From positions 1-48,293 of the forward strand of contig NZ_CAKMLL010000002.1 of NCBI RefSeq assembly GCF_927797785.1: DNA of 48,293 nucleotides, read 5' to 3'. Every line of letters starts with the position of its first letter. Within the stretch, counting starts at the first letter, position 1. Shown one piece after another: positions 2,981 to 48,293 of this stretch. The translations under genes and the position numbers were made by a program. The stretch is from Candidatus Nitrotoga sp. BS. GTDB taxonomy: Bacteria > Pseudomonadota > Gammaproteobacteria > Burkholderiales > Gallionellaceae. The notes under the pieces are model-generated. The model searched no databases. It was not told the DNA's origin and worked only from the letters and a program-made list of their open reading frames with translations.

Positions 2981-5422
2981 TTATGTTCCACCAGCAATGT
3001 CCTGGTGCCAGTATCGTGTGTGGCTTTTACGATATCGCTCCACGCTAATATTTTGCGCATCCATTTTTACGATGATGGCGCCGTCCCGGTCCGAACGCAA
3101 TGGTTCGCTGTCCACTGCAAGATAGCGTTCGACCACCTCCTTTTTCGGATGACCAAAGCGATTGCGGTAACCCACGGTGAATACAGCATAGCGAGGATGT
3201 ATGGCCGTTACGAAAGCATTCACCGATGAGGTTTTGCTGCCGTGGTGTGGCACCACCAAGAGTGTGGAGGGGAGCTTTTCTTCATGCTGTTTCAGTAATC
3301 GCCATTCGGAATCTTTTTCGATGTCGGCGGCGAGCAACACGCTGTTTTTGCCCGTGCTGATTTTCAACACGCAGCTGCGGTTGTTGTCGCGGATTTTTTC
3401 TACTGTATAACTTTCCGCTGTCGGGTGTAGCACTTCAAAGTGTACGCCGTCCCATTCCCATGTTTGCCCATCCATGCAGCGTTGTGTGTTCGAAGTGTGT
3501 TGTAACAGGGGATGGTTTGCGGCGAGCGAGGATGAGAGCCATCCTACTGGCATTCCTTGCAAAATAGATAATGCGCCGCCGGTGTGGTCGTTGTCATCAT
3601 GAGTAAGAATCAGGCCGTCGAGTTGAGAGATGCCCATGCCGCGCAGCGCCGGGATGAGAATGCGGTTGCCACTGTTGGCCTCGCTATTAAAATTGGGACC
3701 GGTGTCATATAGCAGTGCATGGTTGTGTGTCTGCGCGGCTACCGCCAAGCCTTGCCCGACATCGAAAATTACCAGGTGTAACGCACCTTCTGGCGGTACT
3801 ACGGGCAGTACCAGAAACATCGGCAGCAGGGCGATCAGTCCCAGCCAGCGTGCGGGAAATCCGCGCGGCAGCAGCATCCATAGCACACCAAACATGCCAA
3901 CGACTATGCTCCATGTGGGCGGTGCGTGCTGTGTCCATACCGCATCTGGCAAATTATTCAGCCATTCCAACAGGTTGATACACACGCCCATGACTTGATG
4001 TGCCAGCCACAGCGGCCAATCGAAGGGAAGCACCGCGCCCAGCAGGGTGAGCGGCACCACCACGAAGCTGACCAACGGAATGGCAAAAGCATTGGCGATG
4101 GGCGACACCAGTGAAATTTGCTGAAACATCGCCAACAGCGGCGGAATCAGCCCGATGCTCATTGCCCATTGAACTCGACCATAGGTTATTAACCAGTGTG
4201 GAGGGCGTAAACGGTGCGCAGTCACATAAAAAATCAATGCCACGGCACCGAAAGAGAGCCAGAATCCCGGCGACAGCACCGCCCATGGGTCGAGCAATAA
4301 CACAACGAGCAAGGCGGCGGCAAGAATTTGCGACGGTGCGACAGTGCGGGAAAGCCACAATATGGAAGCGATCGTCGCCAGCATATAAACCGTGCGTTGC
4401 GCCGGTACACCATAACCTGCCAGTAGCGCATAGCCGAGTGCCACCAGCAAACCAATGAGCGCAGCAGCTTTGCGTGCCGGTAGCGCGCGCGTGAGGCGCG
4501 CACTGCGTCGCCATAACCAATAGCTTGCAGCAAACGCCAGCCCGGATAGCATGGTGATGTGCAGGCCGGAAATACTCATCAAATGATTAACGCCGGTGCG
4601 TGTGAATACCTGCCACTGTGCTGCTGGGATACTGGCCTGGTCACCGATGGCCAGTGCGGTTAACACGCCGACGTAATTATTTTCTGCGACGACACTCACT
4701 TCAGCGTTATCGCGAACTACTTTCTCGCTTGCAGCTTGTGGGGTTTGCAGGGGATGAAGCTGATTGGGGAGGGGGTTTAACGTATGCTGGATATGGTCGC
4801 GTGCTTTTTCGCGCAGGCTCTGGATAGTGTAATCGGGTGATTTCACTAATGCATCCAGTCGCGAGTTATCGTGCTTTCGATTAATGTAACCGTTGGCGCG
4901 CAGGTTGTTTTCCAGCATCCATGCTTCAAAATCAAAATCGTGGGGATTGCTGCTGCCGTGCGGTTGCTTCAAGCGTACTGTGAGCCGCCAACGTTCACCG
5001 GCGTGGATGTCAAGAGGTTCTTCCCGTATACCATCGTAACTGGCTAGCAGGATGTGTGGCGGAACAATGGCATTAGGGGTGAGCACTTGTTCAACATCGA
5101 AGACAAAACGAAGTCCGTGTTCATGCTGTGCGGGTAGTTTTGCGACCACGCCTATGACTTGAATATCTTTGCCTTGCCATTCGGCAGGTAAAGCATCGGA
5201 CAGACGTTGCTGCGCAAAAAATGCGGCGTAGAAAAAACCAAGGGAACAGGCAAATGCCGCGAGAAAAACAAGATATGTCTTGCGTTGCACGAAAGTGTTA
5301 CGCGGTAGTACCCAAGTAACAGCAAATAATAATGTCAGTCCACTCCAGGCGAAGTTGGGAAGCGCTGCCTGTTGTTGCAAAAGCCATACGCCAAATACAA
5401 AAAATAAAACGGCATAGCGCAT
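2981..5422 (-). CDS. comEC: ComEC/Rec2 DNA-uptake channel protein
   Basis: This 813-residue integral membrane protein is ComEC/Rec2, the inner-membrane channel that passes single-stranded DNA into the cytoplasm during natural transformation. N-terminal membrane helices are followed by an OB-like DUF4131 region. The Competence domain includes TGVNHLMSISGLHITMLSGL near residues 285-305. A C-terminal metallo-beta-lactamase domain carries the metal motif THDDNDHTGG, with LLVVPHHGSKTSS further on. Length is normal for the family. The gene ends at an inserted repeat element whose flanking TTAT supplies the stop codon, so the natural last residues may have been altered. Only 7 bases separate it from the ATPase gene upstream, suggesting cotranscription. 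Confidence 0.93.
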   Translation of the reverse strand: MRYAVLFFVFGVWLLQQQAALPNFAWSGLTLLFAVTWVLPRNTFVQRKTYLVFLAAFACSLGFFYAAFFAQQRLSDALPAEWQGKDIQVIGVVAKLPAQHEHGLRFVFDVEQVLTPNAIVPPHILLASYDGIREEPLDIHAGERWRLTVRLKQPHGSSNPHDFDFEAWMLENNLRANGYINRKHDNSRLDALVKSPDYTIQSLREKARDHIQHTLNPLPNQLHPLQTPQAASEKVVRDNAEVSVVAENNYVGVLTALAIGDQASIPAAQWQVFTRTGVNHLMSISGLHITMLSGLAFAASYWLWRRSARLTRALPARKAAALIGLLVALGYALLAGYGVPAQRTVYMLATIASILWLSRTVAPSQILAAALLVVLLLDPWAVLSPGFWLSFGAVALIFYVTAHRLRPPHWLITYGRVQWAMSIGLIPPLLAMFQQISLVSPIANAFAIPLVSFVVVPLTLLGAVLPFDWPLWLAHQVMGVCINLLEWLNNLPDAVWTQHAPPTWSIVVGMFGVLWMLLPRGFPARWLGLIALLPMFLVLPVVPPEGALHLVIFDVGQGLAVAAQTHNHALLYDTGPNFNSEANSGNRILIPALRGMGISQLDGLILTHDDNDHTGGALSILQGMPVGWLSSSLAANHPLLQHTSNTQRCMDGQTWEWDGVHFEVLHPTAESYTVEKIRDNNRSCVLKISTGKNSVLLAADIEKDSEWRLLKQHEEKLPSTLLVVPHHGSKTSSVNAFVTAIHPRYAVFTVGYRNRFGHPKKEVVERYLAVDSEPLRSDRDGAIIVKMDAQNISVERYRKSHTRYWHQDIAGGT

Positions 5423-12876: not shown

Positions 12877-14397
12877 ATGTGTGGCATTTTAGGCGTTGTT
12901 ACGCAATCATCGGCCAATCAAATTCTATATGATGGGTTGCTTGTGTTGCAGCATCGCGGGCAGGATGCCGCAGGTATTGCCACCATTGAAGGAAATACCT
13001 TTCATCTGCACAAAGGTAATGGCTTGGTACGTGATGTGTTCCGAACGCGTAACATGCGAGCGCTGCGTGGCAATTCGGGCATAGCGCATGTCCGCTATCC
13101 TACTGCGGGTTCTGCCATCGATCACAATGAAGCACAGCCATTTTATGTAAATTCGCCATTCGGCATTGTGCTTGGACATAACGGTAACTTGACCAATACC
13201 GAGCAATTGCAGCAAGAATTGTTTCTGGAAGATAGGCGTCATGTAAATACCAAGTCCGATTCGGAAGTGTTGCTGAATGTGCTTGCACACGAGTTGCAAG
13301 CTAATTCCACAATGCGTTATCGGCTTGATATTAAAAGTATCTTTGCAGCCGTATCTGGAGTGCATCGTCGCTGCCATGGTGCTTACGCAGTGGTGGCAAT
13401 GATTGCGGGTTATGGTCTGCTGGCGTTCCGAGATGTTTATGGTATCCGGCCACTGGTATTGGGTAGTAATCAAACTGAAAATGGCACGGAATATTTGATT
13501 GCTTCGGAAAGCGTCGCGCTGGATACGCTAGGCTTCAAGTTTCTGCGCGATATTGCACCAGGTGAATCGGTATTTATTGAATTTAATGGGAACTTGCACA
13601 GTCAGCAATGTGCAGAAAATCCCACACTTAATCCATGCATTTTTGAGTATGTTTATCTGGCGCGTCCGGATTCAGTGATCAATGGGGTTTCGGTATATGA
13701 GACACGTTTGAACATGGGTGAAAATCTGGCCGACAAAATTTCTCGTGAATGGCAGCAGCATGATATTGATGTAGTAATTCCTATTCCGGACTCCAGCCGT
13801 CCTAGTGCCTTGCAATTGGCTAATCGTTTGGGTATCTCATTCCGTGAAGGTTTTGTGAAAAACCGTTATATTGGACGTACCTTCATTATGCCGGGACAGG
13901 CAATGAGGAAAAAGTCTGTGCGTCAGAAGCTAAATCCAATTAGCGTAGAGTTTAAGGATAAAAATGTCTTGTTGGTGGACGATTCCATCGTACGCGGCAC
14001 CACTAGCCGTGAAATTGTTCAAATGGCGCGTGATGCCGGAGCGCGCAAGGTGTACTTCGCCTCCGCTGCACCCCCGGTACGTTTCCCAAATGTGTATGGG
14101 ATTGATATGCCGAGTCGCAGGGAGCTGATTGCCACCGGCCGTAGTGATGAGGAAATTTGTCGTGAGATCGGTGCAGACAGATTGGTTTATCAGGATATTG
14201 AAGATCTTAAAGCGGCAGTGCGCAAGATGAATCCGAAACTTAAGTACTTTGATGCTTCATGTTTTGATGGAGATTACATAACGGGAGATGTTACATCAGA
14301 GTATCTCGATGCAATTGAAGCGGCGCGTGAAAATAGCAAGGTAAGTACGGATGATGATTCCAGCCAGCTTGATCTTGATTTAGTCGCGAACCAATAA
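12877..14397 (+). CDS. purF: Amidophosphoribosyltransferase
   Basis: PurF, 506 residues, catalyses the first committed step of purine synthesis, converting PRPP and glutamine to phosphoribosylamine. Cys2, exposed after removal of Met1, is the glutaminase nucleophile (MCGILGVV). The N-terminal Ntn-hydrolase domain shows [12 protein letters not shown] and GHNGNLTN. The phosphoribosyltransferase domain has the PRPP loop [14 protein letters not shown] at about residues 364-377. Length is normal. It is the last gene of its cluster; the ribosomal gene that follows has its own promoter. Confidence 0.96.
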
Positions 14398-19854: not shown

Positions 19855-19972
19855 TCTGAATGATTGGATGTCCTTTCTCAAAAATAATGGGCACCACAAA
19901 AGTCAAACTAAGTGTTGGACAAAGCCGCTACATGGAGAAACGCTATTTGTACTATCTGCGCCCACAATTAAA

Positions 19973-20010
19973 GGGCGCCTCTAAAAATTCAAGTTTCTAG
20001 CGAGTAAAAA
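19973..20010. repeat. Partial copy of repeat family 1
   Basis: The sequence starts GGGCGCCTCTAAAAATTCAA, then GTTTCTAG, and resumes at CGAGTAAAAA after loss of about 13 bases present in the copies at 2842 and 48243. No right-hand terminal repeat is seen. It is a decayed or truncated copy, 65 bases upstream of the reverse transcriptase gene. It occupies part of the 221-base gap 19855-20075, which otherwise holds only a short open frame ending in this repeat. Confidence 0.7.
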
Positions 20011-20075: not shown

Positions 20076-21719
20076 ATGCCCGAAGTTACACGTGATCATT
20101 TCCTGCGAGCAGCTGCTGACATCAGCGCACATGGCGACAACGACACACTTCCGTTTGATATTGACACACAGTTTACTTCGTATAAGCAGTTTGAGCTTGC
20201 AAGCCTAGCGTTTGCTTTCTTCGAGCAGTTGCAAAATGATAATGAACAAAATAGCGCACGAAAAATATCCGCACTTAGTGTGTTTAGCGAACGTCTTCTA
20301 GCACCAACTGGGCCGACAGGCTTTCGCGTTGTAACCAAGATTCATCCATTCTGGAACATTTACTTCAACGGCCTCGGTATAGCAATTGCTGAAGCATTAG
20401 AAAGTAACCGTGATGGTCGTGCTCATTCATACCGCCTCCTGCTCAACGGCGGTAACGAACTGTTCGATAGAACATCCTCGTGGAAAGTATTCCGTGAAAA
20501 AACTGTTACCGATGCCAATGCATCCAGTGATGGAACAATCATAGTTCAAACCGATATTTCAAGTTTCTACGAACACATTTCACATCACCATATTGAGAAC
20601 TTAATAGACGACTTGTTTCCTGACAATGGACGTATTGGCAATCAGGTGAATGCCCTCCTTAGTAAGTTCTCATCTGGCAGGTCATTTGGCCTTCCAGTCG
20701 GAGGACAGTGCTCCCGAATTCTTGCGGAGCTATTCCTCAATTTGGTTGATCATCGAATGACGGGAGCTAGAATTCGATGGCACAGGTATGTCGATGACTA
20801 TGTACTTATAGCAAGCTCTCATGCGGATGCTTACAAAGCACTTGCTTTTCTTTCGCACACGCTTGCTGATTATGGACTTACGTTGAACAAGACAAAGACT
20901 GTAATGCTTACAGCCAAGCATTACTCGGACTATGTAACGGCTCAACTTGGCGGCAATGATGATGAAGCAGGAAAGCTTAGAGAGATTGACCTGCGCTTTG
21001 ATCCTTACTCAGATACATCAGTCGAAGATTACGAATCACTGAAGCAAACCGTCGAAAGCCTTCAAGTTCATAGACTTCTAAATCGAGAGTTGGAGAAAGC
21101 CATCCCCGATACTTTCTTAGTGACGCAGATTGGGAGAACTCTAAGGTTACAGGAGCCTAATATAGCAATTCAACTAGCGTCCGCGCTCCTCAGTCAAGGA
21201 AACCTTCACGCTTTCCGGGCATCTTGGTCAGCCATCATGCGAGGAATTGCAAATCTTCGCTCTTCTGAAGAACACAGCAACATCTTTGCCGAACTCGATC
21301 AACTTTTAGACCTTATCCCAGAGCATTCCGCACATCTATTGCAGGCAGAAGCAGGTCTTCTTCATTATCTCCGAACGCTGAGGTTCGCGAGGACAACTCA
21401 ACGCACAGCCTTCGCCCATAATGTTTACAGTAATACTCGTTCAGATACAGTCAGGAGGTCTTGCATTGATTGTTGGCGGCAGTGGAAAGACAGGGATGCT
21501 TTCACCTTCCTTCGAAATAGATGGAACGAACTTAGCGCAGAGTGCCAACGCATTGTGTGGCTTTCGGCATCGGTGTTTGGTGATCAAGGTGATGGGTTTA
21601 AGCGGCAAATTAAACCAAGCCTAGGTCAATCATGGAGGCTTGGGATTGAGTGCCAAGGTGTCACTAGTTATGCCACTATTTATCAGGAGTGGTGCGATGA
21701 CGCACAATCCTGTGAATGA
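20076..21719 (+). CDS. Defence-type reverse transcriptase with helical C-terminal region
   Basis: A 547-residue reverse transcriptase. RT motifs are in order: motif A QTDISSFYEHI with Asp160, motif B GLPVGGQCSR (205-214), motif C YVDD (238-241) and motif D GLTLNKTKT (267-275). Motif B reads LPVGG rather than the LPQG common in group II intron RTs, and there is no maturase (X) domain or HNH domain. After about residue 330 comes a roughly 200-residue helical stretch (for example AIQLASALLSQGN and LLQAEAGLLHYLRTLRF), comparable to the helical repeats following the RT core in AbiA, AbiK and Abi-P2-like and other unknown-group antiviral RTs. Some 150 residues precede motif A. It overlaps the next gene by 23 bases. 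It is clearly not a retron or intron RT; the subfamily cannot be named here. Confidence 0.85.
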   Translation: MPEVTRDHFLRAAADISAHGDNDTLPFDIDTQFTSYKQFELASLAFAFFEQLQNDNEQNSARKISALSVFSERLLAPTGPTGFRVVTKIHPFWNIYFNGLGIAIAEALESNRDGRAHSYRLLLNGGNELFDRTSSWKVFREKTVTDANASSDGTIIVQTDISSFYEHISHHHIENLIDDLFPDNGRIGNQVNALLSKFSSGRSFGLPVGGQCSRILAELFLNLVDHRMTGARIRWHRYVDDYVLIASSHADAYKALAFLSHTLADYGLTLNKTKTVMLTAKHYSDYVTAQLGGNDDEAGKLREIDLRFDPYSDTSVEDYESLKQTVESLQVHRLLNRELEKAIPDTFLVTQIGRTLRLQEPNIAIQLASALLSQGNLHAFRASWSAIMRGIANLRSSEEHSNIFAELDQLLDLIPEHSAHLLQAEAGLLHYLRTLRFARTTQRTAFAHNVYSNTRSDTVRRSCIDCWRQWKDRDAFTFLRNRWNELSAECQRIVWLSASVFGDQGDGFKRQIKPSLGQSWRLGIECQGVTSYATIYQEWCDDAQSCE

Positions 21720-22431
21720 CCCAAGAACAGTCGCCCGCAACATTCCCGGCGTTTTTGACTCATTATTTCCTCAGTTAACTCCCAGTATCGTCGCTCATTT
21801 TAACCGAACAGCGCAGGTTTCACTGTGCGCGCCTATCCCTATTAAGATGGTGCAGGAGAGTAAGCTTCTTAAAGCCATGCTCTTTGAACTTGGTTTCACT
21901 GTTGGTGAAAAGCAGCTCGCGGGAAATAAATTTGACTGGGATGATTGCTTGCGGATTGCTATCGCTCGGCAGAAACGTTATTTCGATGCACAAGTACCGA
22001 GTGAGCTTACCAAGCTTGACAAACAGGTAGCCGAAATGACTGGCAATAATATTGCAACAATGATTAAGGAATTGGCCGCAGAACGTAAACATCCTATAAG
22101 GTCAGCACCTGCTGTTTCGGGTTTTCAATGGATTTCTTCAGGGCACGGTGATTTTGCAATCGGCCCAACCCTTATAGAGGTGAAGTGTAGTAGTGGAAAT
22201 TTTTCAGCTCCAGACTATCGGCAGATAGTTATGTATTGGCTACTTAGCTTTTCTGCATCAGTAGAAGACAATCGCGCAGAATGGTCTGAAGGTATTTTGT
22301 TAAATCCACGTTCAGCAAAGTATGTGGCGTTTGAACTTGACGATTTTTTACGTGTAATAAGTGGCGGGCGTACAAAAGTTGAAATTCTTCAGCTTTTCTC
22401 ATCAATGGTTGGAACACGCGATGTTAAATAA
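21697..22431 (+). CDS. Putative PD-(D/E)XK nuclease (RecB/Cas4-like) paired with the RT
   Basis: The start at 21697 is chosen because AGGAG lies 8 bases upstream; the protein has 244 residues and the gene overlaps the RT gene by 23 bases in another frame. The C-terminal half has the three signatures of RecB/Cas4-family nucleases in order: G149-x-x-D152 (SGHGDF), E161-x-K163 (LIEVKCSSG) and Q176-x-x-x-Y180 (QIVMYW). This spacing supports a metal-dependent PD-(D/E)XK active site. No Cas4-type iron-sulfur cysteine cluster is obvious. The N-terminal 135 residues are helical and not recognised; they may contact the RT or nucleic acid. No CRISPR locus is present in the window. Translational coupling implies a joint role, probably antiviral; that function is inference. 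Confidence 0.7.
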   Translation: MTHNPVNDPRTVARNIPGVFDSLFPQLTPSIVAHFNRTAQVSLCAPIPIKMVQESKLLKAMLFELGFTVGEKQLAGNKFDWDDCLRIAIARQKRYFDAQVPSELTKLDKQVAEMTGNNIATMIKELAAERKHPIRSAPAVSGFQWISSGHGDFAIGPTLIEVKCSSGNFSAPDYRQIVMYWLLSFSASVEDNRAEWSEGILLNPRSAKYVAFELDDFLRVISGGRTKVEILQLFSSMVGTRDVK

Positions 22432-22534
22432 GGTAATGAAGATTAAGCTCGTCATCATATGGACCTGCGCATATCTTTTGAGGAATCGTTACCCATGGAT
22501 TCTAAGTATTGGGCAGTCGTGTAAGTCATAGTCA

Positions 22535-22559
22535 ACGCATTCAATGCGTAACGATTTTT
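22535..22559 (+). terminator. Possible terminator after the RT-nuclease pair
   Basis: ACGCAT (22535-22540) and ATGCGT (22544-22549) form a short stem with a 3-base loop, followed by AACGATTTTTA. The stem is only 6 bp, so it is a weak terminator at best. The rest of 22432-22660 contains nothing recognised. Confidence 0.4.
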
Positions 22560-22660
22560 ATCAAAGCGTTTTTTACTCTGATCTCAGGAGAAATATTGAT
22601 TCCTTGAGCGATCAAAAAGATCAAGTTCTCTCCCCGTATCGAAATGGCACATGTGTAACA

Positions 22661-24817
22661 TCAGTGACTTACTAAAGTATCGTCATAAAAAATAACCTCA
22701 CCTGTGGAGATATTATGAGTGCCACCGATAATTCCACATTCACCCTTTTCAATCATTTCTTTTAAAATCGGACTACTTTCCATAATGGCGTGGACTGTTC
22801 GTTTAACATTACCCGTGGAGACTTTTTCTACAAATTCATCATTACTTGAAGTGCGGTTATCGGTGACAGTTGTTTCATCATCAACTGCAGGTTGTAGCTT
22901 ACTTAACAAGGCTGTCAAATTCCCCATTTCTACATGATCGCAAGCCCCTTTTACCGCACCGCATTTAGTATGACCTAAAACCACGATGATTTTAGCGCCG
23001 GCGACTTTGCAACCAAATTCCATGCTGCCCAATATATCTTCATTAATGATATTTCCAGCTATACGCACACTAAAAATATCGCCCAATCCTTGATCAAAAA
23101 TCAACTCTGTAGATGTGCGGGAATCTATGCAGCTCAAAATTACCGCAAACGGATGTTGTCCATCGGAGGTTTCATTAGCCTGTTGCAGCAAGTTACGATT
23201 GACTTTCAAGTTATTGATAAAGCGCTCATTTCCTTCTTTTAATATACTTAATGCCATTCTAGGGCTAATGGCAGACTGTAGTTTTTTGGTTAATGTTTTT
23301 ATTTTTGTTTCAACCGTTACATTTTTTGTTCTAGCATTACTTTCATAATTTTTTATGATCTCAGCAACATCGTAAGCAATGAATTTTGAATAGGTGGCAT
23401 CAATAATCACTTTGGCATTATTAGGGATACTATTTAAAGTATTTAAGATCCCTGCTTTATTGATAAATGACACCTCTTCTGCCAAAACCAGATGATGAAC
23501 TTCTTGTCCGTTTTCTGAGCTAATAATTTTTTTCACAAAATGCGAATTTCGGTAGCTGTGGCGTAATGTAAAGAAAATACCAAAAGCCATACCAATCAAT
23601 ATACCGCCTAATAAATCGGTCGCCAATATGCCGATTACTGTCGCGATAAAAGGCACGAATTGCTCCCACCCTAACTCGTACATTTGTTTAAATAGCGCAG
23701 GTTTAGCTAATTGATAACCGACTATAAGCAAGATTGCCGCTAAACTAGCTAACGGAATTTTGTTCAATAATCCCGCAATGGTAATCGCGCTAATGAGTAA
23801 AAAGATGCCATGAAGTATCGTGGATAGTTTGCTTTTTCCACCAAAGGAAATATTAGCCGAACTACGCACAATCACTTGGGTAACCGGCAAACCGCCAATC
23901 AAGCCAGAAATGATATTACCCAAACCTTGCGCTTTTAATTCTCTATTTGCAGGGGTCACTCTTTTGTCAGGATCCAATTTATCGATTGCTTCAACACATA
24001 ACAGGGTTTCTAAACTGGCGACAATTGCAATAATTAACGCAACTTTCAAAACTTCAACATTGCTAATGGCCGAGAAATCAGGGAAGGTAAACTGATTAAT
24101 AAATCCGGACAAGTTATCAGGCACGGGAAGTCTCACGACTTGATCAGCTGCCAAACTAAAATTCAATAATCCATTTTGATAAGCCATGTTCATGAAAATG
24201 CCTAACACCACGACGACTATAGGCCCTTGAATAAATTGAAATATCTTATTTTTTTTGATTAAAACCGTATCCCATAAGATAAGAATAACCAAGGACAATG
24301 CTGCAATTAATAACGCGCCAGGGGAAAATGCATTTATAGCACTGACAATTGATGTAAAGGTGTTTTCTCCACTGACTTGCAAAAAAGCATCAGCTCCTAC
24401 AGCATCTTTGCCATAACCTAATGCGTGCGGGATTTGCTTTAGAATAATCAATAAGCCAATGCCTGTTAACATGCCTTTAATCACCGAAGAAGGAAAAAAA
24501 TAGACAATAAAACCCGCTTTAGCAAAACCCATAATAAGCTGGATAATTCCGGCTAAAACCACCGCTAATATAAAGACTGGCCACGAGCCAAGAGTCGCAA
24601 TACCTGAAAGCACAATCACAGCCAAACCAGCGGCGGGACCACTAACGCCATGAGACGAGCCACTGGCAATACCGACCACGATACCACCAACGAAGCCAGC
24701 AATAATTCCCGAGAATAAAGGCGCACCCGATGCCAAAGCAATTCCAAGGCACAAAGGAAGAGTCAACAAAAACACAACAATACTGGCAGGCAAGTCGTTT
24801 CTAATGTCTTTAAACAT
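22661..24817 (-). CDS. SulP anion transporter-STAS-beta-carbonic anhydrase fusion
   Basis: A 718-residue fusion. Residues 1-420 form the SulP membrane domain (SGSSHGVSGPAAGLAVIVLS at about 52-71). About 430-500 is a STAS-like domain (VIIDATYSKFIAYDVAEI). About 515-718 is a beta-class carbonic anhydrase with zinc ligands Cys563, His616 and Cys619 and the dyad Asp565/Arg567 (CIDSR, HTKCG). Such fusions are thought to take up bicarbonate and couple it to CO2 hydration; this is established for related SulP carriers and inferred here. Base composition is clearly richer in A/T than the neighbouring core genes, suggesting acquisition from another lineage. A GGAG site precedes the start. A TetR gene is divergent. 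Confidence 0.9.
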   Translation of the reverse strand: MFKDIRNDLPASIVVFLLTLPLCLGIALASGAPLFSGIIAGFVGGIVVGIASGSSHGVSGPAAGLAVIVLSGIATLGSWPVFILAVVLAGIIQLIMGFAKAGFIVYFFPSSVIKGMLTGIGLLIILKQIPHALGYGKDAVGADAFLQVSGENTFTSIVSAINAFSPGALLIAALSLVILILWDTVLIKKNKIFQFIQGPIVVVVLGIFMNMAYQNGLLNFSLAADQVVRLPVPDNLSGFINQFTFPDFSAISNVEVLKVALIIAIVASLETLLCVEAIDKLDPDKRVTPANRELKAQGLGNIISGLIGGLPVTQVIVRSSANISFGGKSKLSTILHGIFLLISAITIAGLLNKIPLASLAAILLIVGYQLAKPALFKQMYELGWEQFVPFIATVIGILATDLLGGILIGMAFGIFFTLRHSYRNSHFVKKIISSENGQEVHHLVLAEEVSFINKAGILNTLNSIPNNAKVIIDATYSKFIAYDVAEIIKNYESNARTKNVTVETKIKTLTKKLQSAISPRMALSILKEGNERFINNLKVNRNLLQQANETSDGQHPFAVILSCIDSRTSTELIFDQGLGDIFSVRIAGNIINEDILGSMEFGCKVAGAKIIVVLGHTKCGAVKGACDHVEMGNLTALLSKLQPAVDDETTVTDNRTSSNDEFVEKVSTGNVKRTVHAIMESSPILKEMIEKGECGIIGGTHNISTGEVIFYDDTLVSH

Positions 24818-28662: not shown

Positions 28663-29802
28663 CTAGTTATCCAGACTCTTTGCCGTTTTTGCAAGTGCAA
28701 CGGCGAAAAACACAATACCAATGGCCAGCATCGCCAGCATATTTGGAAGCAGGAGTGCCCAAATATCCCCAGCAAGAAATACGGTTTGTAGCGAAGAGAC
28801 AAAATAGCGCGCTGGAATCACATAAGTCAGGATGCGAATCGGCGCTGGCATTGAATCAATTTCAAACAGATAACCTGAGAGCAGGAATGCGGGGAGGAAT
28901 CCAGATAAGAGTGCGACTTGAGCAGCAATAAACTGGTTCTTTGTAACCGCTGATATCAGTAAACCTTGACCCAGCGCGGGTACAAGAAAAACGGATGAAA
29001 GAGACAGCAGGGTCAGCCATGAGCCGCGCAAAGGTACGCCGAAAACAGTTATTGCCAGAAGCGCGGAGATGATAGTCGCGCCCAGACCAAGCACAAAATA
29101 GGGCAATAGCTTTCCAATCAGAATTTCAACGACTGATGCGGGTGTGGACATGATCGCTTCCATGGTTCCGCGCTCCCATTCTCGCGCTACCACTAACGCC
29201 GTAAGCAAGGTGCCTATCATCGTCATGATGATAGCAATAGCGCCTGGCACAAGAAAGTGACGGCTTTCAATCTCTGGGTTGAACCAGAATCGTGGCTCCA
29301 GTGTAAGCGCACTGCCTATAGCCGGGGAGTGAGCTGATTGCCATATTTTGATCACGCCTTGCGCATAGTTGGCGACAAAGCGAGCCGTATTAGGTTGTGC
29401 CCCATCAGTTATGATCTGAACAAGAGGAGGGCGGGTGCCGGATGCTAGCCTCTGCTCAAAATCCTGGGGAATTACCACGTAACCCCGGAGCCGCCCGCCA
29501 ACAACCTCCCCGGCAACCTCACGCCGGTCACGCGCAGGCGTAACAGCGAAATATCGTGTACCGGAGAAAGCCGCCGCTAATGATTGCGCAGCGGCACTGT
29601 CGGATTCCAAAACTATGCCGATGGGCACTTTCTGGGTATCGAGCGATACGGCATATGCAAAAAGAAAGAGCATTACCACGGGTAATACGAATGCGATTAG
29701 TATCGTCGAGGGATCACGGATTACTTGCAAACTTTCTTTTCGTACCAATGCCCATAGGCGCCGGAAATCGAATCGGGAAGCAACCTTTTCGGTGACACTC
29801 AT
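28663..29802 (-). CDS. ABC-2 type exporter permease (YbhS-like)
   Basis: A 379-residue ABC-2 permease, a paralogue of the downstream permease. An N-terminal helix (STILIAFVLPVVMLFLFAYA) is followed by the periplasmic domain (PIGIVLESDSAAAQSLAAAF) and C-terminal helices with the coupling segment REWERGTMEAIMSTP. It overlaps the ATPase gene by 4 bases (ATGA), so synthesis is likely coupled. The substrate cannot be read from the sequence. Confidence 0.9.
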   Translation of the reverse strand: MSVTEKVASRFDFRRLWALVRKESLQVIRDPSTILIAFVLPVVMLFLFAYAVSLDTQKVPIGIVLESDSAAAQSLAAAFSGTRYFAVTPARDRREVAGEVVGGRLRGYVVIPQDFEQRLASGTRPPLVQIITDGAQPNTARFVANYAQGVIKIWQSAHSPAIGSALTLEPRFWFNPEIESRHFLVPGAIAIIMTMIGTLLTALVVAREWERGTMEAIMSTPASVVEILIGKLLPYFVLGLGATIISALLAITVFGVPLRGSWLTLLSLSSVFLVPALGQGLLISAVTKNQFIAAQVALLSGFLPAFLLSGYLFEIDSMPAPIRILTYVIPARYFVSSLQTVFLAGDIWALLLPNMLAMLAIGIVFFAVALAKTAKSLDN

Positions 29803-31574
29803 TTAGTCTCCGTTGCCCGGGTGGTTGTGTTCTCTGCATCTGCTGATTGAATGAGCTGTATAAACGCGTCTTCCATCGTCGGCTCATCGCTCCCGTCCTT
29901 GAATACGCTCCGCTTCAGCGCGTCAGGTGTGTCCAGTGCGATCACCTTGGCTTGGTACATCAGCGCGACGCGGTCGCAATATTCGGCTTCGTCCATGAAA
30001 TGAGTGGTCACGAGCACAGTCACCCCCTTGCGCACTAGTCCATTGATGTGCGTCCAAAATTCTCGGCGTGTTATCGGATCAACACCTGAAGTAGGTTCAT
30101 CAAGAAACAACACTGGTGGCCGGTGCATCAGCGCACAAGCCAGTGCCAGCCGCTGCTTGACGCCAAGAGGGAGGTCGTCTGGCGACAAGTGTATATATTG
30201 CTGCAGGTGGAATATCTCGATCATTTCGTTTATACGTTCCCGCTTGGCAGCGCCGTCAAATCCGTAGACGCCTGCCGAGAATTCGAGATTTTGTCGTGCT
30301 GAAAGCAGACCATACAGGGAAAATTTCTGCGCCATATAGCCCAGCTGGCTCTTGGCTTCGCTCGTTGCTGTGCGAAGATCCAGTCCCATTACATGCGCTC
30401 CACCCGAGGTCGGTTTGAGCAAGCCACAAAGCATCTTGAAAGTCGTTGATTTGCCTGCACCGTTGGGGCCGAGGAGGCCAAATATTTCACCTTTCTTCAC
30501 CTGAAAACTCACATGATCGGTCGCGATGAAATCACCAAAACGGCGAGTGAGGTCAAGACACTCGACAGCAATGTCTCCCTTGAAATTTACGGTCGCCATT
30601 CGCTCTGCAAGTGCTGATGTTCCGCCCGGTCCCCCGCCGAGCAAATCAACAAAGGCATCCTCGAATCTTGGAGTAACGGGTGCAATTTCTGCGCCGACTT
30701 CCCCGGCCAAGGCATCAATCTCTTCCCGGGTAGCATTCTTACGCAGAACGGCTCGAACGGAATTACCCTGAATGACGCCATCACAAACTGATTTCAGGTC
30801 TAGCACCCGTGACAGAACGATCCGGCGCTCTTGCTGTGGATCGAGCAGACGAAAGCTTCTGTGCTTCAACGTCGTCGTCAGCTCGTCTGGTGGGCCATCG
30901 TATTCGATCTTGCCCTCATTCAGGAGGAGTACAGTTGCGCAGCGTTCGGCCTCGTCGAGATAAGCCGTTGACCACACCACCGCCATGCCTTCGTCAGTTA
31001 GTTCGCGCACCATTTTCCATAAATCTTGTCGACTTACGGGATCAACACCAACGCTTGGTTCGTCCAGCAGCAAGACGCGGGGTTTCCCCATCATCGCGCA
31101 GGCAAGCCCCAGCTTTTGTTTCATGCCGCCAGAGAGTCGGCCAGCTAGACGCTTTGTAAAGGGCGCGAGTCGGGTAAACGTGAGCAAGCGCTCGAATATG
31201 TCCTGATGGGTGTTAGGTTCGACTCCCTGTAACTGCGCATAAAGACGAAGATTCTCCATCACCGATAGATCCTCATACAGCCCGAAACGTTGCGGCATAT
31301 ATCCCGTTAACGTGTGAATGCGGTCGCTGTCGCGCACGGTATCGCAGTCGGCGACAATAATGCGCCCCGCGCTTGGTGCCATAAGCGCCGCCATCAAGCG
31401 CATCAAAGTAGTTTTCCCTGCTCCATCAGGCCCAATCAAGCCAGTCAGCCTGCCCGGCAAAATGTTTGCAGTAATTTCGTGTAGCGCCTCGACATTTCCA
31501 AAGAACTTTGTAACACCGACAATCTCGACTGCCGGCTGTGATGACAGCTTGACCCGAGAAACTTGTGTGCTCAT
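29799..31574 (-). CDS. Tandem ABC exporter ATPase (YbhF/RbbA-like)
   Basis: About 591 residues with two full ABC ATPase domains in one chain. Domain 1 has Walker A GPDGAGKTT (about residues 48-56), signature LSGGMKQKL and Walker B VLLLDEPSVGVDP. Domain 2 has GPNGAGKST, the variant signature LPLGVKQRL, and VLFLDEPTSGVDP. The replacement of SGG by LGV in the second signature resembles YbhF-type proteins and may make the two ATP sites unequal. The start is taken at 31574 (MSTQ), one base after the hlyD stop. An upstream ATG at 31586 would overlap hlyD and cannot be excluded; neither has a strong ribosome-binding site. Confidence 0.9.
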   Translation of the reverse strand: MSTQVSRVKLSSQPAVEIVGVTKFFGNVEALHEITANILPGRLTGLIGPDGAGKTTLMRLMAALMAPSAGRIIVADCDTVRDSDRIHTLTGYMPQRFGLYEDLSVMENLRLYAQLQGVEPNTHQDIFERLLTFTRLAPFTKRLAGRLSGGMKQKLGLACAMMGKPRVLLLDEPSVGVDPVSRQDLWKMVRELTDEGMAVVWSTAYLDEAERCATVLLLNEGKIEYDGPPDELTTTLKHRSFRLLDPQQERRIVLSRVLDLKSVCDGVIQGNSVRAVLRKNATREEIDALAGEVGAEIAPVTPRFEDAFVDLLGGGPGGTSALAERMATVNFKGDIAVECLDLTRRFGDFIATDHVSFQVKKGEIFGLLGPNGAGKSTTFKMLCGLLKPTSGGAHVMGLDLRTATSEAKSQLGYMAQKFSLYGLLSARQNLEFSAGVYGFDGAAKRERINEMIEIFHLQQYIHLSPDDLPLGVKQRLALACALMHRPPVLFLDEPTSGVDPITRREFWTHINGLVRKGVTVLVTTHFMDEAEYCDRVALMYQAKVIALDTPDALKRSVFKDGSDEPTMEDAFIQLIQSADAENTTTRATETK

Positions 31575-31575
31575 C

Positions 31576-32574
31576 TCATCGGTCATGTGCTTCAGTAGCA
31601 ACTCGTATCGTCACTGGCATCCCCTGGCGAAGGGCGCTATCTGAATTTGAAACGACAATTCGTATGCGGTATACAAGATCAGTTCTAAGATCTGTAGTTT
31701 CCACAGATTTCGGTGTGAACTCAGCACGCGGAGAAATAAACCCGATCTCTCCCTGGTAGACTTTGTCTGTTGAATCAGTTCGTACCGTCACCTTGACGCC
31801 AGGGATAACCCGACCAAGATCCGGTTCGCTCACATAAGCTCTTATGTAGACCGGATCACGAAGCGACAGGATGTAGACGGCCGAGCTCGCGTTCACCATA
31901 CTGCCCGGCTCGCGTACTCGAGACAGTACGGTTGCATTGGTCGGAGCAGCCAAGCGAGTATCAGCCAATGCTGTCATGGACTGTGCAACCATAGCCTCTG
32001 CTACGGCTAACCGTGCCTCTCCGGCAGCGACATCCTCCCGACGGGAACCTTCCTTTTTCAAGGCTAACGCTTGTTTTGCTGAGGCAAGAGCCGCCTCTGC
32101 CTGGTCACGTGCCGCACGAGCGGCATCGCTGACACGTTGGCTTACCGATCCTGATTTCACAAGCGCGCTCTGGCGTTTGAAATTATTATCCGTATTTTTG
32201 AATACGGCCTTGGCTTGGCGCACTGACTCATCTGCTTGTGCGATTTCTTGGGGACGATTGCCGTGGCGTAATTTTTCGAGTTCGGCACGGGCACGCAGCA
32301 CCTCGGCTTCAGAGACTGCCAGTGCATCGCGGTATGGGCGAGCATCAAGTTCAGCCATAACGTCGCCGGTCTTTACTGTGGCACCCTCGTCAAAGAACGC
32401 TTTCGCCAGACGACCAGGCTGTCGGAAAGCTAGATCAACCTCGCGAATATCGACGTTTCCATAGAGAAGGAGTGAATTTTTTGGACCCGGATTACGGCTC
32501 AACAACCAGTAGCCCGCCACCAAGATGGCAGCGATGGCAACAACAAGAATAACGCGAAGTTTGACGGAATTCAT
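31576..32574 (-). CDS. HlyD-family membrane-fusion protein (YbhG-like)
   Basis: A 332-residue periplasmic adaptor. The start at 32574 (MNSVKLR) is supported by GGAGG 7 bases upstream; a longer reading to 32772 is not. One N-terminal membrane anchor (VILVVAIAAILVAGYWLL) is followed by the first lipoyl half (GRLAKAFFDEGATVKTGDVMA), a long alpha-helical hairpin rich in Ala, Glu and Arg, the second lipoyl half (LAAPTNATVLSRVREPGSMV) and a beta-barrel domain. It is the first gene of the operon and should bridge the ABC permeases and the outer-membrane factor. Confidence 0.92.
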   Translation of the reverse strand: MNSVKLRVILVVAIAAILVAGYWLLSRNPGPKNSLLLYGNVDIREVDLAFRQPGRLAKAFFDEGATVKTGDVMAELDARPYRDALAVSEAEVLRARAELEKLRHGNRPQEIAQADESVRQAKAVFKNTDNNFKRQSALVKSGSVSQRVSDAARAARDQAEAALASAKQALALKKEGSRREDVAAGEARLAVAEAMVAQSMTALADTRLAAPTNATVLSRVREPGSMVNASSAVYILSLRDPVYIRAYVSEPDLGRVIPGVKVTVRTDSTDKVYQGEIGFISPRAEFTPKSVETTDLRTDLVYRIRIVVSNSDSALRQGMPVTIRVATEAHDR

Positions 32575-35823: not shown

Positions 35824-36344
35824 CCGATGTTCTACACGCCAAGGCATGCGCCGATTTCCAGCCTGCTGTTGTTGGAACCTTGTATAGCCCATATTTCGTA
35901 TAAAGCTGCTGGCTCGGGAAACGGCCTAAGCCGATCCCTCTGTCCTTGACCTTGTGACACTTCATCAGGTGCTTTCGCATTCGTTCTTCTGTATGCGTCT
36001 TCACCTTCTCCAATGCTTGGTTGGAATTGCGGTAATGAAAGTAGTTAGCCCAACCGAGAAGAGCGGAGTTCACACTTCCCACAACATCAACTATCGCTAT
36101 CGGTGTGCGTTTCCTTGTTCACCCTGATTGCAAATCCCAGGAAATTAAAACTTTCCTGTCGGGCATCAACAATGTGGGTCTGGCTCTCGTTTAGCGTGAG
36201 ATCAAGCCGTTCCAGTACATGCCGAACTGCTGCCAAGGGCGCATCTACCTTGCCCCTACATAGCACCACAAAGTCGTCCGCATAGCGGAAGATGTGCCCT
36301 TTCAGCTTCCAGCGCAGTTGACGTTTGTCCCATATCCGATCCAA
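35807..36344 (-). pseudogene. Group II intron reverse transcriptase/maturase, fragmentary
   Basis: Two frames together cover the back half of an LtrA-type protein. The first (36344-36087) has the RT catalytic box FRYADDFVVL, then LDLTLNESQTHI and FNFLGFAIRV. The second (36082-35807) has the maturase region LLGWANYFHYRNSNQALEK and YTKYGLYKVP. The frames differ, and about 35 residues that should link FLGF to the GWANYF segment are missing. Everything before the YADD box is also gone. It has at least two internal deletions and is not functional. Confidence 0.85.
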
Positions 36345-36595
36345 AAGTCGATGGATGCCACTTCCGTTATTTCAGCATCCATCCAACGGCCTTCCCCTTC
36401 TGACCACAGGGTCGGCTTCTCCAATTCATTTACGAGGCTACGTCTAGGTTCACTTGCGTTACGGCCTGCTCTCTTGCTGTGTGGAAACTCACGACCCCGT
36501 GTTACCACGACGACGCTTCCTTATGCTACCGAGGCGTACGGACAACTCCTCGGACGGGACTTTAACCCGTTGGATCTATTACATTTACTGCGAAC

Positions 36596-45599: not shown

Positions 45600-46463
45600 T
45601 CATTGCATTACAACATTTTTTTTCAGATCTTCTTCAAATTTCCGCACTGCGCGACTGACCGTCATGTAGTGTATCCCGAAATGGCCCCCGATCTCTGCCA
45701 TCGTATAAGCACCGGATAGGTAAGCCCGAGCTATCGCCTGATCTCTATCCGGGTGGCGCATCTGGTACTCATCCAGCGACAAAGCGACCGATCTTCGATG
45801 GGCCTTTGAAACTTCCCGTAGCGCTTCTCGATTTTTTGTTTGCCAGTGGCGCTCTACGAAAGCATTGTCACCCAGCAACAATTGATGGCGAGTTTCCAGC
45901 ATGGGGCTGGGCAAGCCCCTGCCCGCCATCACGAACTGGCGATAACCCCTGAGCGCTTTGCTGCGCTGTGAACCAAACTGACCAAGCAACCAGTCCGCAT
46001 CCAGCCACGGAGGGGCTGCCTCCTGTCCCGTGATAAAAGGGTAACTGCTCCAGCGCCAGTCCTCAAGCGATTCCACCATGTTGGCGCGCAGTGGGTTCAG
46101 CACCACATAGCGCGTTAACTCCAGTAAATAGGCTTCCTTTTGTACCAGGATCGCCTTGTAGCGCCCCTGAAAAAGATGCCCCGCCAGGCCATGGCGGCGG
46201 TTGAAGCGCTGGGTATACAGGCCGTTCAATTGCCGCATCCCACCGGACAAATTACCGTCCACCGTCTCCACCAGCAGGTGATAGTGATTGGTCATCTGGC
46301 AAAAAGCATGAACCACCCAGTTAAATCGAGCGCAAACAATGCCCAGCACCGCCAGCCAATCACTGCGATCATCGTCGCTCAGGAAAATATCTTCCCGACG
46401 ATCCCCACGCGAGGTGACGTGATAAAGGGCACCCGAAAATTCTAGTCTGAGAGGTCTAGCCAT
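45600..46463 (-). CDS. REP-associated tyrosine transposase (RAYT)
   Basis: A 287-residue member of the Y1 (IS200-like) HUH nuclease family domesticated as RAYT. The HUH motif is His60-Tyr-His62 (MTNHYHLLVE), and Tyr83 in NGLYTQRFNRRHG is the likely nucleophile. GHLFQGRYKAILV and LTRYVVLNPLRANMV are family stretches. The C-terminal helix-turn-helix (YTMAEIGGHFGIHYMTVSRAV) is typical of the longer RAYT class. It looks intact. Its C-terminal end is duplicated as a remnant at 36610-36765, and motif copies lie nearby, so it or a relative has been active in this genome. Confidence 0.92.
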   Translation of the reverse strand: MARPLRLEFSGALYHVTSRGDRREDIFLSDDDRSDWLAVLGIVCARFNWVVHAFCQMTNHYHLLVETVDGNLSGGMRQLNGLYTQRFNRRHGLAGHLFQGRYKAILVQKEAYLLELTRYVVLNPLRANMVESLEDWRWSSYPFITGQEAAPPWLDADWLLGQFGSQRSKALRGYRQFVMAGRGLPSPMLETRHQLLLGDNAFVERHWQTKNREALREVSKAHRRSVALSLDEYQMRHPDRDQAIARAYLSGAYTMAEIGGHFGIHYMTVSRAVRKFEEDLKKNVVMQ

Positions 46464-47950: not shown

Positions 47951-48242
47951 TTCGATATCATTTCGGTCATGTGTATAGTGCCGTGCTCAGTGAGGCGACA
48001 GAGAGGATGAATGAAAGCGAGGGCGAGCTGTATTATAGCGAAATGTGTCTGCCTGCCATCCCTGCATTATTATTTTCGACCTTGTCTGCAATGTCGGTTC
48101 GACCCACCATCGTTAAGCCGAGCAGTCTTAAAGCCTCCGCATGTCAGTCAGCAGGAATGGTGTTAGTCATTGCCTTGTGCATATTTCGCACATTTTGCAA
48201 GTTACAATGACTGACCCAAATTTCGTTTTTCGAACTCTTCAA

Positions 48243-48293
48243 GGGCGCCTCTAAAAATTCAATTTTCTAGACAAGACAAGGCGCGAGTAAAAA
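48243..48293. repeat. Repeat family 1, copy cut by the window end
   Basis: The last 51 bases start GGGCGCCTCTAAAAATTCAA and are identical to the first 51 bases of the complete copy at 2842, through the GCGCGAGTAAAAA segment. The right end would lie beyond the window. Confidence 0.85.

Follow-up and report, generated by a model that had tools for sequence, protein, structure and literature searches.

The window analyzed here comprises positions 1 to 48,293 of contig NZ_CAKMLL010000002.1 of Candidatus Nitrotoga sp. BS, and contains two overlapping forward-strand genes that encode a reverse transcriptase (RT) and a nuclease (Table 1). A reading of the sequence alone had marked the pair as a candidate undescribed defense system. 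The elements it named are present: motifs A (D160), B (LPVGG) and C (YVDD) lie within an open reading frame of 547 residues, whose end is overlapped for 23 bases by a second frame of 244 residues carrying G-x-x-D, E-x-K and Q-x-x-x-Y elements. The last of these is the RecB-type motif.

Table 1. Features of the RT-nuclease gene pair in the window
Feature	Position	Strand	Remarks
Drt8 RT gene	20076-21719	+	ATG start, 547 amino acids
RTasPDDEXK nuclease gene	21697-22431	+	ATG start, 244 amino acids; start codon within RT gene
Overlap of RT and nuclease genes	21697-21719	+	23 bases
RT motif A, D160	20553-20555	+	Invariant in 25/25 aligned RTs
RT motif B, LPVGG, residues 206-210	20691-20705	+	P207, G209 and G210 invariant in 25/25
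RT motif C, YVDD, residues 238-241	20787-20798	+	D240 and D241 invariant in 25/25
FDPYS-x6-Y element, F308 to Y319	20997-21032	+	In low-confidence linker of RT
Nuclease D152 of G149-x-x-D152	22150-22152	+	D152 invariant in 25/25 aligned nucleases
Nuclease E161-V-K163 (E-x-K)	22177-22185	+	E161 and K163 invariant in 25/25
Nuclease Q176-x-x-x-Y180	22222-22236	+	Q176 and Y180 invariant in 25/25
Conserved short leader, with AAAGGGAAAAA directly before RT start codon	20045-20075	+	Left edge of DNA common with L002

The RT was aligned with 24 homologs, as was the nuclease, the latter down to 19% identity. The two sets differ by one member: locus L018 is in the RT alignment only and L010 in the nuclease alignment only, with the RTs of L010, L024, L026 and L027 left out (L denotes a homologous locus and G a whole genome). 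The tyrosine of YVDD (Y238) is replaced by phenylalanine in L090 and L091. In five pairwise comparisons for each gene, the ratio of nonsynonymous to synonymous substitution (dN/dS) was 0.084-0.112 for the RT and 0.045-0.135 for the nuclease, omitting eight codons per gene at the overlap; against L007 dS exceeds 1 and is saturated. These ratios indicate that both genes are under purifying selection and, with the full-length family matches given next, show that the two frames have not arisen by chance.

Comparison with the PADLOC models identifies both proteins. The RT matches Drt8 over positions 2-491 of the 493 in the profile (E = 7.9e-148, 491.8 bits), with the runner-up family RT_UG21 at 103.9 bits, and this upholds the earlier supposition of a defense RT. 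The nuclease matches RTasPDDEXK over its full length (E = 1.8e-71, 238.5 bits). We read this name as RT-associated PD-(D/E)XK; the model was present in PADLOC-DB 2.0.0 of 2023, and it and Drt8 both stand under the DRT heading. Each of the 25 aligned RTs has a Drt8 match of E = 1e-40 or better, a level reached with no other family. From these matches it is practically certain that the window holds a complete and intact DRT type 8 system, and by its sequence the pair very probably functions as a translationally coupled anti-phage system.

Our search of openly accessible papers for DRT8, and for UG7, which we take to be a synonym of DRT type 8, found no mechanistic study of DRT8. Among the papers, cited here by PMC number, a 2025 paper characterizes DRT8 by a PD-(D/E)XK domain (PMC12596737), two 2026 reviews describe it as antiphage with a mechanism not established (PMC13213688, PMC13314766), and a table additionally lists the PNP-domain protein Cap17 with DRT8 (PMC10952713). 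The window pair shares with DRT type 8 the RT family, the partner family, the gene order and the coupling, and we found no type-defining difference between them; it differs in its host lineage and in having no recognizable defense neighbors.

The pair is therefore of an already named kind, and DRT8 with a PD-(D/E)XK partner was in print before. Neither the description of the system as undescribed nor the view that it could not be assigned to a named type survives, since the RT belongs to DRT type 8 and PADLOC has a separate model for the partner. This is the outcome that the earlier reading had itself named as refuting it, an RT of a named DRT type whose partner is already described. Neither protein reaches the cut-off of any NCBIfam model, and Pfam offers the general RVT_1 for the RT and nothing for the nuclease, so it is understandable that the pair can seem to lack a name. 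These absences are what would favor a truly new defense type unrelated to the named DRTs, an explanation to which we attach a negligible probability and which the two full-length matches, together with the published description (PMC12596737), refute.

The only Pfam domain on the RT is RVT_1 (residues 141-281, E = 7e-16); a maturase domain is lacking, as the sequence-only reading had held. In NCBIfam the RT scores far under the cut-offs of the maturase and retron models, and on these grounds we rejected an origin from a group II intron or a retron. The NCBIfam AbiA model aligns with RT residues 81-352 (E = 4.4e-6) at 25.7 bits, where its cut-off is 250. The nuclease has no match in PHROGs and none in a PDB search with its sequence alone, and a PDB search with the nuclease alignment returned a single, chance-like match (E = 0.58).

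Linkage of the nuclease to the RT

How often the two genes are neighbors had been put forward as a check on the pairing. We found 26 loci with a relative of the RT in genome contigs, and the nuclease gene directly follows the RT gene in 23 of them. The search used exact short peptides of the window RT, so these loci lean toward close kin. The three exceptions (L024, L026 and L027) are cut or broken RTs. L024 stops at the end of its contig. The RT in L026 (6001-6777) breaks off just after YVDD and is followed by an unrelated frame, which by eye is transposase-like. L027 holds RT residues 1-171, while L010 holds residues 171-547 with an intact nuclease; the two come from one genome, so the 26 loci amount to 25 RT genes. 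Each has about 140 further bases at its contig end (L010 1-140, L027 6514-6650), with a 42-base inverted match (81%) between them, and the RT gene looks as if it has been interrupted by an inserted element.

The same linkage is found on other replicons. All four plasmid records that hold the RT hold the adjoining nuclease, including a Comamonas plasmid on which the RT lacks its 5' part and lies beside an IS3 transposase with the nuclease intact. The one viral contig that bears the RT carries both genes; no viral contig matched a search with the single window RT, and a search of phage records for the RT gave none. In two further whole genomes (G661 and G513) the nuclease again adjoins the RT. 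A nuclease start codon that overlaps the end of the RT gene is available in all 22 homologous pairs considered, these being the 23 genome-contig pairs less L018, with start codons chosen by position. The overlap is of 23 bases in six pairs, 11 in thirteen, and 20, 13 and 4 in one each, in addition to the 23 bases of the window itself.

Whole-genome searches took in 100 relatives, 398 genomes from the phylum and 289 from a single class, in sets that overlap, and found a Drt8 match above 300 bits in 12 genomes. In seven of these (the genome of the window, G017, G040, G046, G055, G661 and G513) there is a strong RTasPDDEXK match adjoining the Drt8, and in the other five (G304, G283, G306, G489 and G688) RTasPDDEXK has no match. 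Every RTasPDDEXK match above 100 bits adjoins a Drt8; five others are partial and weak (20-47 bits). Several of these genomes are the same records as the genome-contig loci (G017 and L003, for example), and the counts are consequently not independent of the 26 loci. The solitary Drt8 RTs (L085, L086, L087, L092 and L093) match Drt8 at 315-484 bits and keep the catalytic aspartates. They differ from the window RT in having 20-23% identity to it, no RTasPDDEXK match in the genome and no FDPY sequence. One of them, L086, lies between a gene for a HerA-like ATPase and an AbiEii gene. Among the remaining finds, L089 is a 96-residue Drt8 fragment in G372, and L088 and L094 are distantly related RTs of the RT_UG20 family (759 and 736 bits), with no RTasPDDEXK match listed for their genomes.

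The nuclease is thus not universal in DRT8. Since there are Drt8 RTs without it, the nuclease looks like an addition, and this fits a control gene that was added. In a tree of 32 RTs, which is flagged for long branches, a branch with support of 77/79, present in 78% of bootstrap trees, divides the 25 coupled RTs from the rest; the tree leaves out the partial RTs of L010, L024, L026 and L027, the four plasmid copies and the viral copy. On this sequence comparison the pairing is likely to have arisen once, and given the branch support and the long branches we put it no more strongly.

Predicted structures and the RT linker

The AlphaFold2 model of the RT has a mean predicted local distance difference test score (pLDDT) of 85.8 and a predicted template modeling score of 0.86. 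On our own reading of the model there is an RT domain (approximately residues 80-290), a linker (approximately 291-330) and a helical C-terminal domain, in agreement with the helical C-terminal region supposed from the sequence. The best PDB matches found by Foldseek are UG15/DRT4, DRT6, Abi-P2, AbiK and AbiA. DRT9, the RTs of group II introns and DRT2 rank below these, and the fold matches also include a complex of retron I-A that contains an HNH nuclease. When the profile of the 25 RTs is compared by sequence, the best solved chains are those of UG15/DRT4 and Abi-P2. The fusion of a helical C-terminal domain to the RT, in loose superposition, is as in the definition of the Class 1 UG RTs, which are template-independent and carry, joined to the RT, a HEAT-like helical (alpha-Rep) domain (PMC13174585). 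The Abi/DRT4 group makes DNA without a template (PMC9508834, PMC11077055, PMC13174585, and PMC13213688 for DRT4), and the product of DRT6 is less resolved.

DRT4 (UG15) and DRT6 offer the best whole-length fold matches in the PDB, and the window pair likewise has no flanking RNA in evidence. They differ from the window in sequence, with 12-15% identity in the fold alignments, and in being single-gene systems (PMC13213688). AbiA, AbiK and Abi-P2 share the architecture of RT plus helical domain, and the linker tyrosines of the window RT lie in an AbiA-like position. The nuclease model has a pLDDT of 87.7, and its Foldseek matches are ACE1 (E = 1.1e-4), Dna2 (1.1e-3) and AdnAB (6e-3), only two chains of one ACE1 entry being below E = 0.001. 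We know of no separate nuclease gene with AbiA, AbiK or Abi-P2.

The nuclease matches ACE1 (of the Argonaute-associated Cas4 family), Dna2 and RecB/AddAB/AdnAB in fold, shares with them the PD-(D/E)XK residues and the Q-x-x-x-Y, and differs from them in having no helicase, no Cas4-type cysteines and a different partner. In the model the partner is a RecB-like PD-(D/E)XK enzyme, with its D...E-x-K site on the core fold, and the PADLOC match agrees with this. Cas4 has four iron-sulfur cysteines. The nuclease has cysteines only at 44, 84 and 164, which are not conserved in all homologs, and its membership of Cas4 was rejected on the absence of the four. Of the earlier label of a RecB/Cas4 nuclease, the RecB-like half is retained and the Cas4 half is weak.

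The linker of the RT is of low confidence in the model, with pLDDT below 50 at residues 303-318, and it is here that F308, D309, P310, Y311 and Y319 are found. All five are invariant in the 25 nuclease-coupled RTs, L090 and L091 (27-29% identity) among them; S312 of FDPYS becomes threonine in L019. None of the five solitary Drt8 RTs has FDPY, and all five have a tyrosine aligned with Y311 in what is a loosely aligned region. In AbiA, Tyr298 and Tyr303 lie in a disordered linker (290-310) between the RT and helical domains, and changing both abolishes synthesis and defense (PMC11077055); in AbiK the priming residue is Tyr44, close to the N-terminus (PMC9508834). Because AbiA primes from tyrosines in a matching linker, we infer that Y311 and/or Y319 are candidate protein-priming tyrosines in Drt8.

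Proposed mechanism and its alternatives

We propose that DRT8 makes template-free, self-primed single-stranded DNA and that the RecB-like nuclease acts on that DNA, and we regard this proposal as a whole as evenly poised. The RT would synthesize single-stranded DNA with no RNA template, in the manner of AbiA, AbiK and DRT4, and would use a tyrosine of its linker, Y311 and/or Y319, as the primer. The nuclease would trim or clear the DNA and keep it harmless. On infection a phage factor would block the nuclease or shield the DNA, which would then build up, and phage growth would stop.

The two parts of the proposal deserve different degrees of belief. Template-free, protein-primed synthesis by Drt8 is somewhat favored by analogy, because the RT is nearest to the DRT4 and Abi enzymes in both fold and sequence profile. 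That the nuclease acts on the product of the RT, rather than on phage or host DNA, we place a little below an even chance. It is suggested by the fold relatives ACE1, Dna2 and AdnAB, which process DNA, by the two copies (the Comamonas plasmid and L010/L027) with a broken RT beside an intact nuclease, and by DRT4, where single-stranded DNA is removed by an exonuclease until its end comes under the protection of a phage protein (PMC13213688). A more specific form would make Drt8 and the nuclease a self-contained poison and antidote, in which tyrosine-primed random single-stranded DNA is held low by the coupled exonuclease, phage interference springs the trap, and FDPYS is the site where the nuclease docks or the 5' end of the DNA is handed over. 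We think this form improbable.

There are several points that weigh against the proposal. The superpositions of the RT are loose, with TM scores by query length of 0.38-0.58 (0.58 for DRT6 and 0.40-0.49 for DRT4) and a root-mean-square deviation (rmsd) of 8-16 Å against the DRT4, DRT6 and Abi entries, and the nuclease superimposes on ACE1 with a TM score of 0.35-0.37 and an rmsd of about 12-13 Å. The prediction is poor in the linker, and the presence of a tyrosine there does not prove priming. The nuclease gene of L018 (7565-8344) contains a single in-frame stop next to an RT gene that is intact, an argument against the nuclease being an indispensable antidote; the stop is perhaps an error of metagenome assembly. 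The broken copies point both ways, with the nuclease gene interrupted in L018 and the RT broken in the Comamonas plasmid and L010/L027. Lastly, upstream similarity does not end at the gene in every pair of relatives: L009 and L026, both from Paraburkholderia, have about 240 bases in common across the start region (74%), and L017 and L023 have about 100 bases in common, roughly 150-250 bases upstream. There may also be an RNA within the coding region of the pair.

Such an RNA is central to a different explanation, in which DRT8 is RNA-templated like DRT2, DRT3, DRT9 and DRT10, with an RNA that lies inside the coding sequence or has diverged too far to be seen. The shared upstream stretches favor it, as does the use of RNA templates by several DRT types (PMC13213688, PMC12632851). 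Comparison of the window with four near relatives of 87-91% protein identity argues otherwise. DNA similarity extends over 20045-22431 in L002, 20010-22441 in L003, 20074-22431 in L004 and 20059-22434 in L006, and then stops, the flanks being unrelated save for a 32-base genomic repeat in L003; the right flank of L002 reaches only 80 bases past the nuclease. Since the shared DNA stops at the genes, what moves seems to be the two genes together with a leader of at most about 65 bases. We saw no conserved RNA gene beside the pair in these four, and Rfam at its gathering threshold gave nothing near it, its sole find in the window being a distant group II intron piece. A flanking noncoding RNA was rejected on this evidence, which speaks against the plan of DRT2, DRT9, DRT10 and the retrons. 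Given also that DRT9 and DRT2 rank below DRT4, DRT6 and the Abi enzymes as fold matches, we consider an RNA-templated DRT8 decidedly unlikely.

In the main rival explanation the nuclease would instead be the effector, held inactive or switched on by the RT or its DNA and degrading phage or host DNA on infection. Retrons with nuclease effectors are a precedent for this, and the retron I-A complex with its HNH nuclease is among the RT fold matches. The invariance of the catalytic residues in all 25 nucleases, the strict pairing with overlapping genes, and the intact RT of L018 beside a stopped nuclease gene point the same way. They are countered by the five Drt8 RTs that have no RTasPDDEXK, by the DNA-processing nucleases that provide the closest folds, and by the two broken RTs beside intact nucleases. 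We judge an effector role a substantial possibility that nevertheless falls well short of an even chance.

The value of the analysis is in narrowing a mechanism that the 2026 reviews call unresolved and in singling out residues. DRT8 is reduced to a compact two-gene unit with no visible flanking RNA and with a fold nearest to Abi, DRT4 and DRT6; there are two named candidate priming tyrosines, and FDPYS separates the nuclease-coupled from the solitary Drt8 RTs. If template-free synthesis with a nuclease acting on the product is correct, it would show how a polymerase that works without a template came to be linked with a partner nuclease.

Genomic setting of the window copy

The pair lies between a gene for phosphomannomutase and one for a sulfate permease/carbonic anhydrase. 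The latter (22661-24817, minus strand) encodes a fusion of Sulfate_transp and Pro_CA domains and is in a stretch of lower GC content (0.37-0.41). In 7 of the 18 other congeners whose phosphomannomutase loci were compared, DNA similarity to the window is lost at 19855-19876, level with the stop codon of that gene or slightly beyond it, so the region to the right is accessory. The exact empty site was not found in these congener loci, which reach only 1500 bases further. One of the seven, G017, has a DRT8 pair of its own on another contig.

PADLOC has a match over most of the length for none of the 29 other window proteins of at least 120 amino acids, and partial matches, through common domains, for those at 2981-5422, 12877-14397 and 29799-31601. 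The window copy is therefore not in a recognizable defense island. Related pairs lie within 6 kb of genes for Old (L006), Hhe/PDC-S37 (L009), MkoA and MkoB of Mokosh (L011) and Tmn (L012); defense neighbors were tested in four of the 23 coupled loci and beside the solitary L086, with loci and proteins picked by eye as defense-like. Elsewhere in the window, at 36332-36563 on the minus strand, Rfam finds a piece of a group II intron (group-II-D1D4-6, 53.7 bits, gathering threshold 49). That piece and the lack of recognizable defense neighbors would fit an RT with no role in defense, either a group II intron remnant or an RT domesticated by the host. This is very improbable in view of the Drt8 score, the lack of a maturase domain and the defense genes near the four relatives.

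The pair had also been placed in an accessory island between repeat elements. This holds only in part. To the left of the RT, at about 19966-20001, there is a repeat of about 30 bp that has 44 or more matches in the genome, 40 of the 93 candidates from a first look having been scored, whereas the right flank (22432-22663) is single-copy. Only one arm of the repeat is found beside the RT, and the repeat search around the pair otherwise gave short two-copy matches. Further copies occur in the window at 2836-2869 and 48238-48270, and on contigs C29, C31, C83 and C100 there are four facing pairs, 117-119 bases apart, that resemble a short element with inverted ends. The window also encodes a 287-residue protein (45600-46463, minus strand) for which PADLOC finds nothing; by eye it resembles what we take to be REP-associated transposases, and it is possibly linked to the short repeats.

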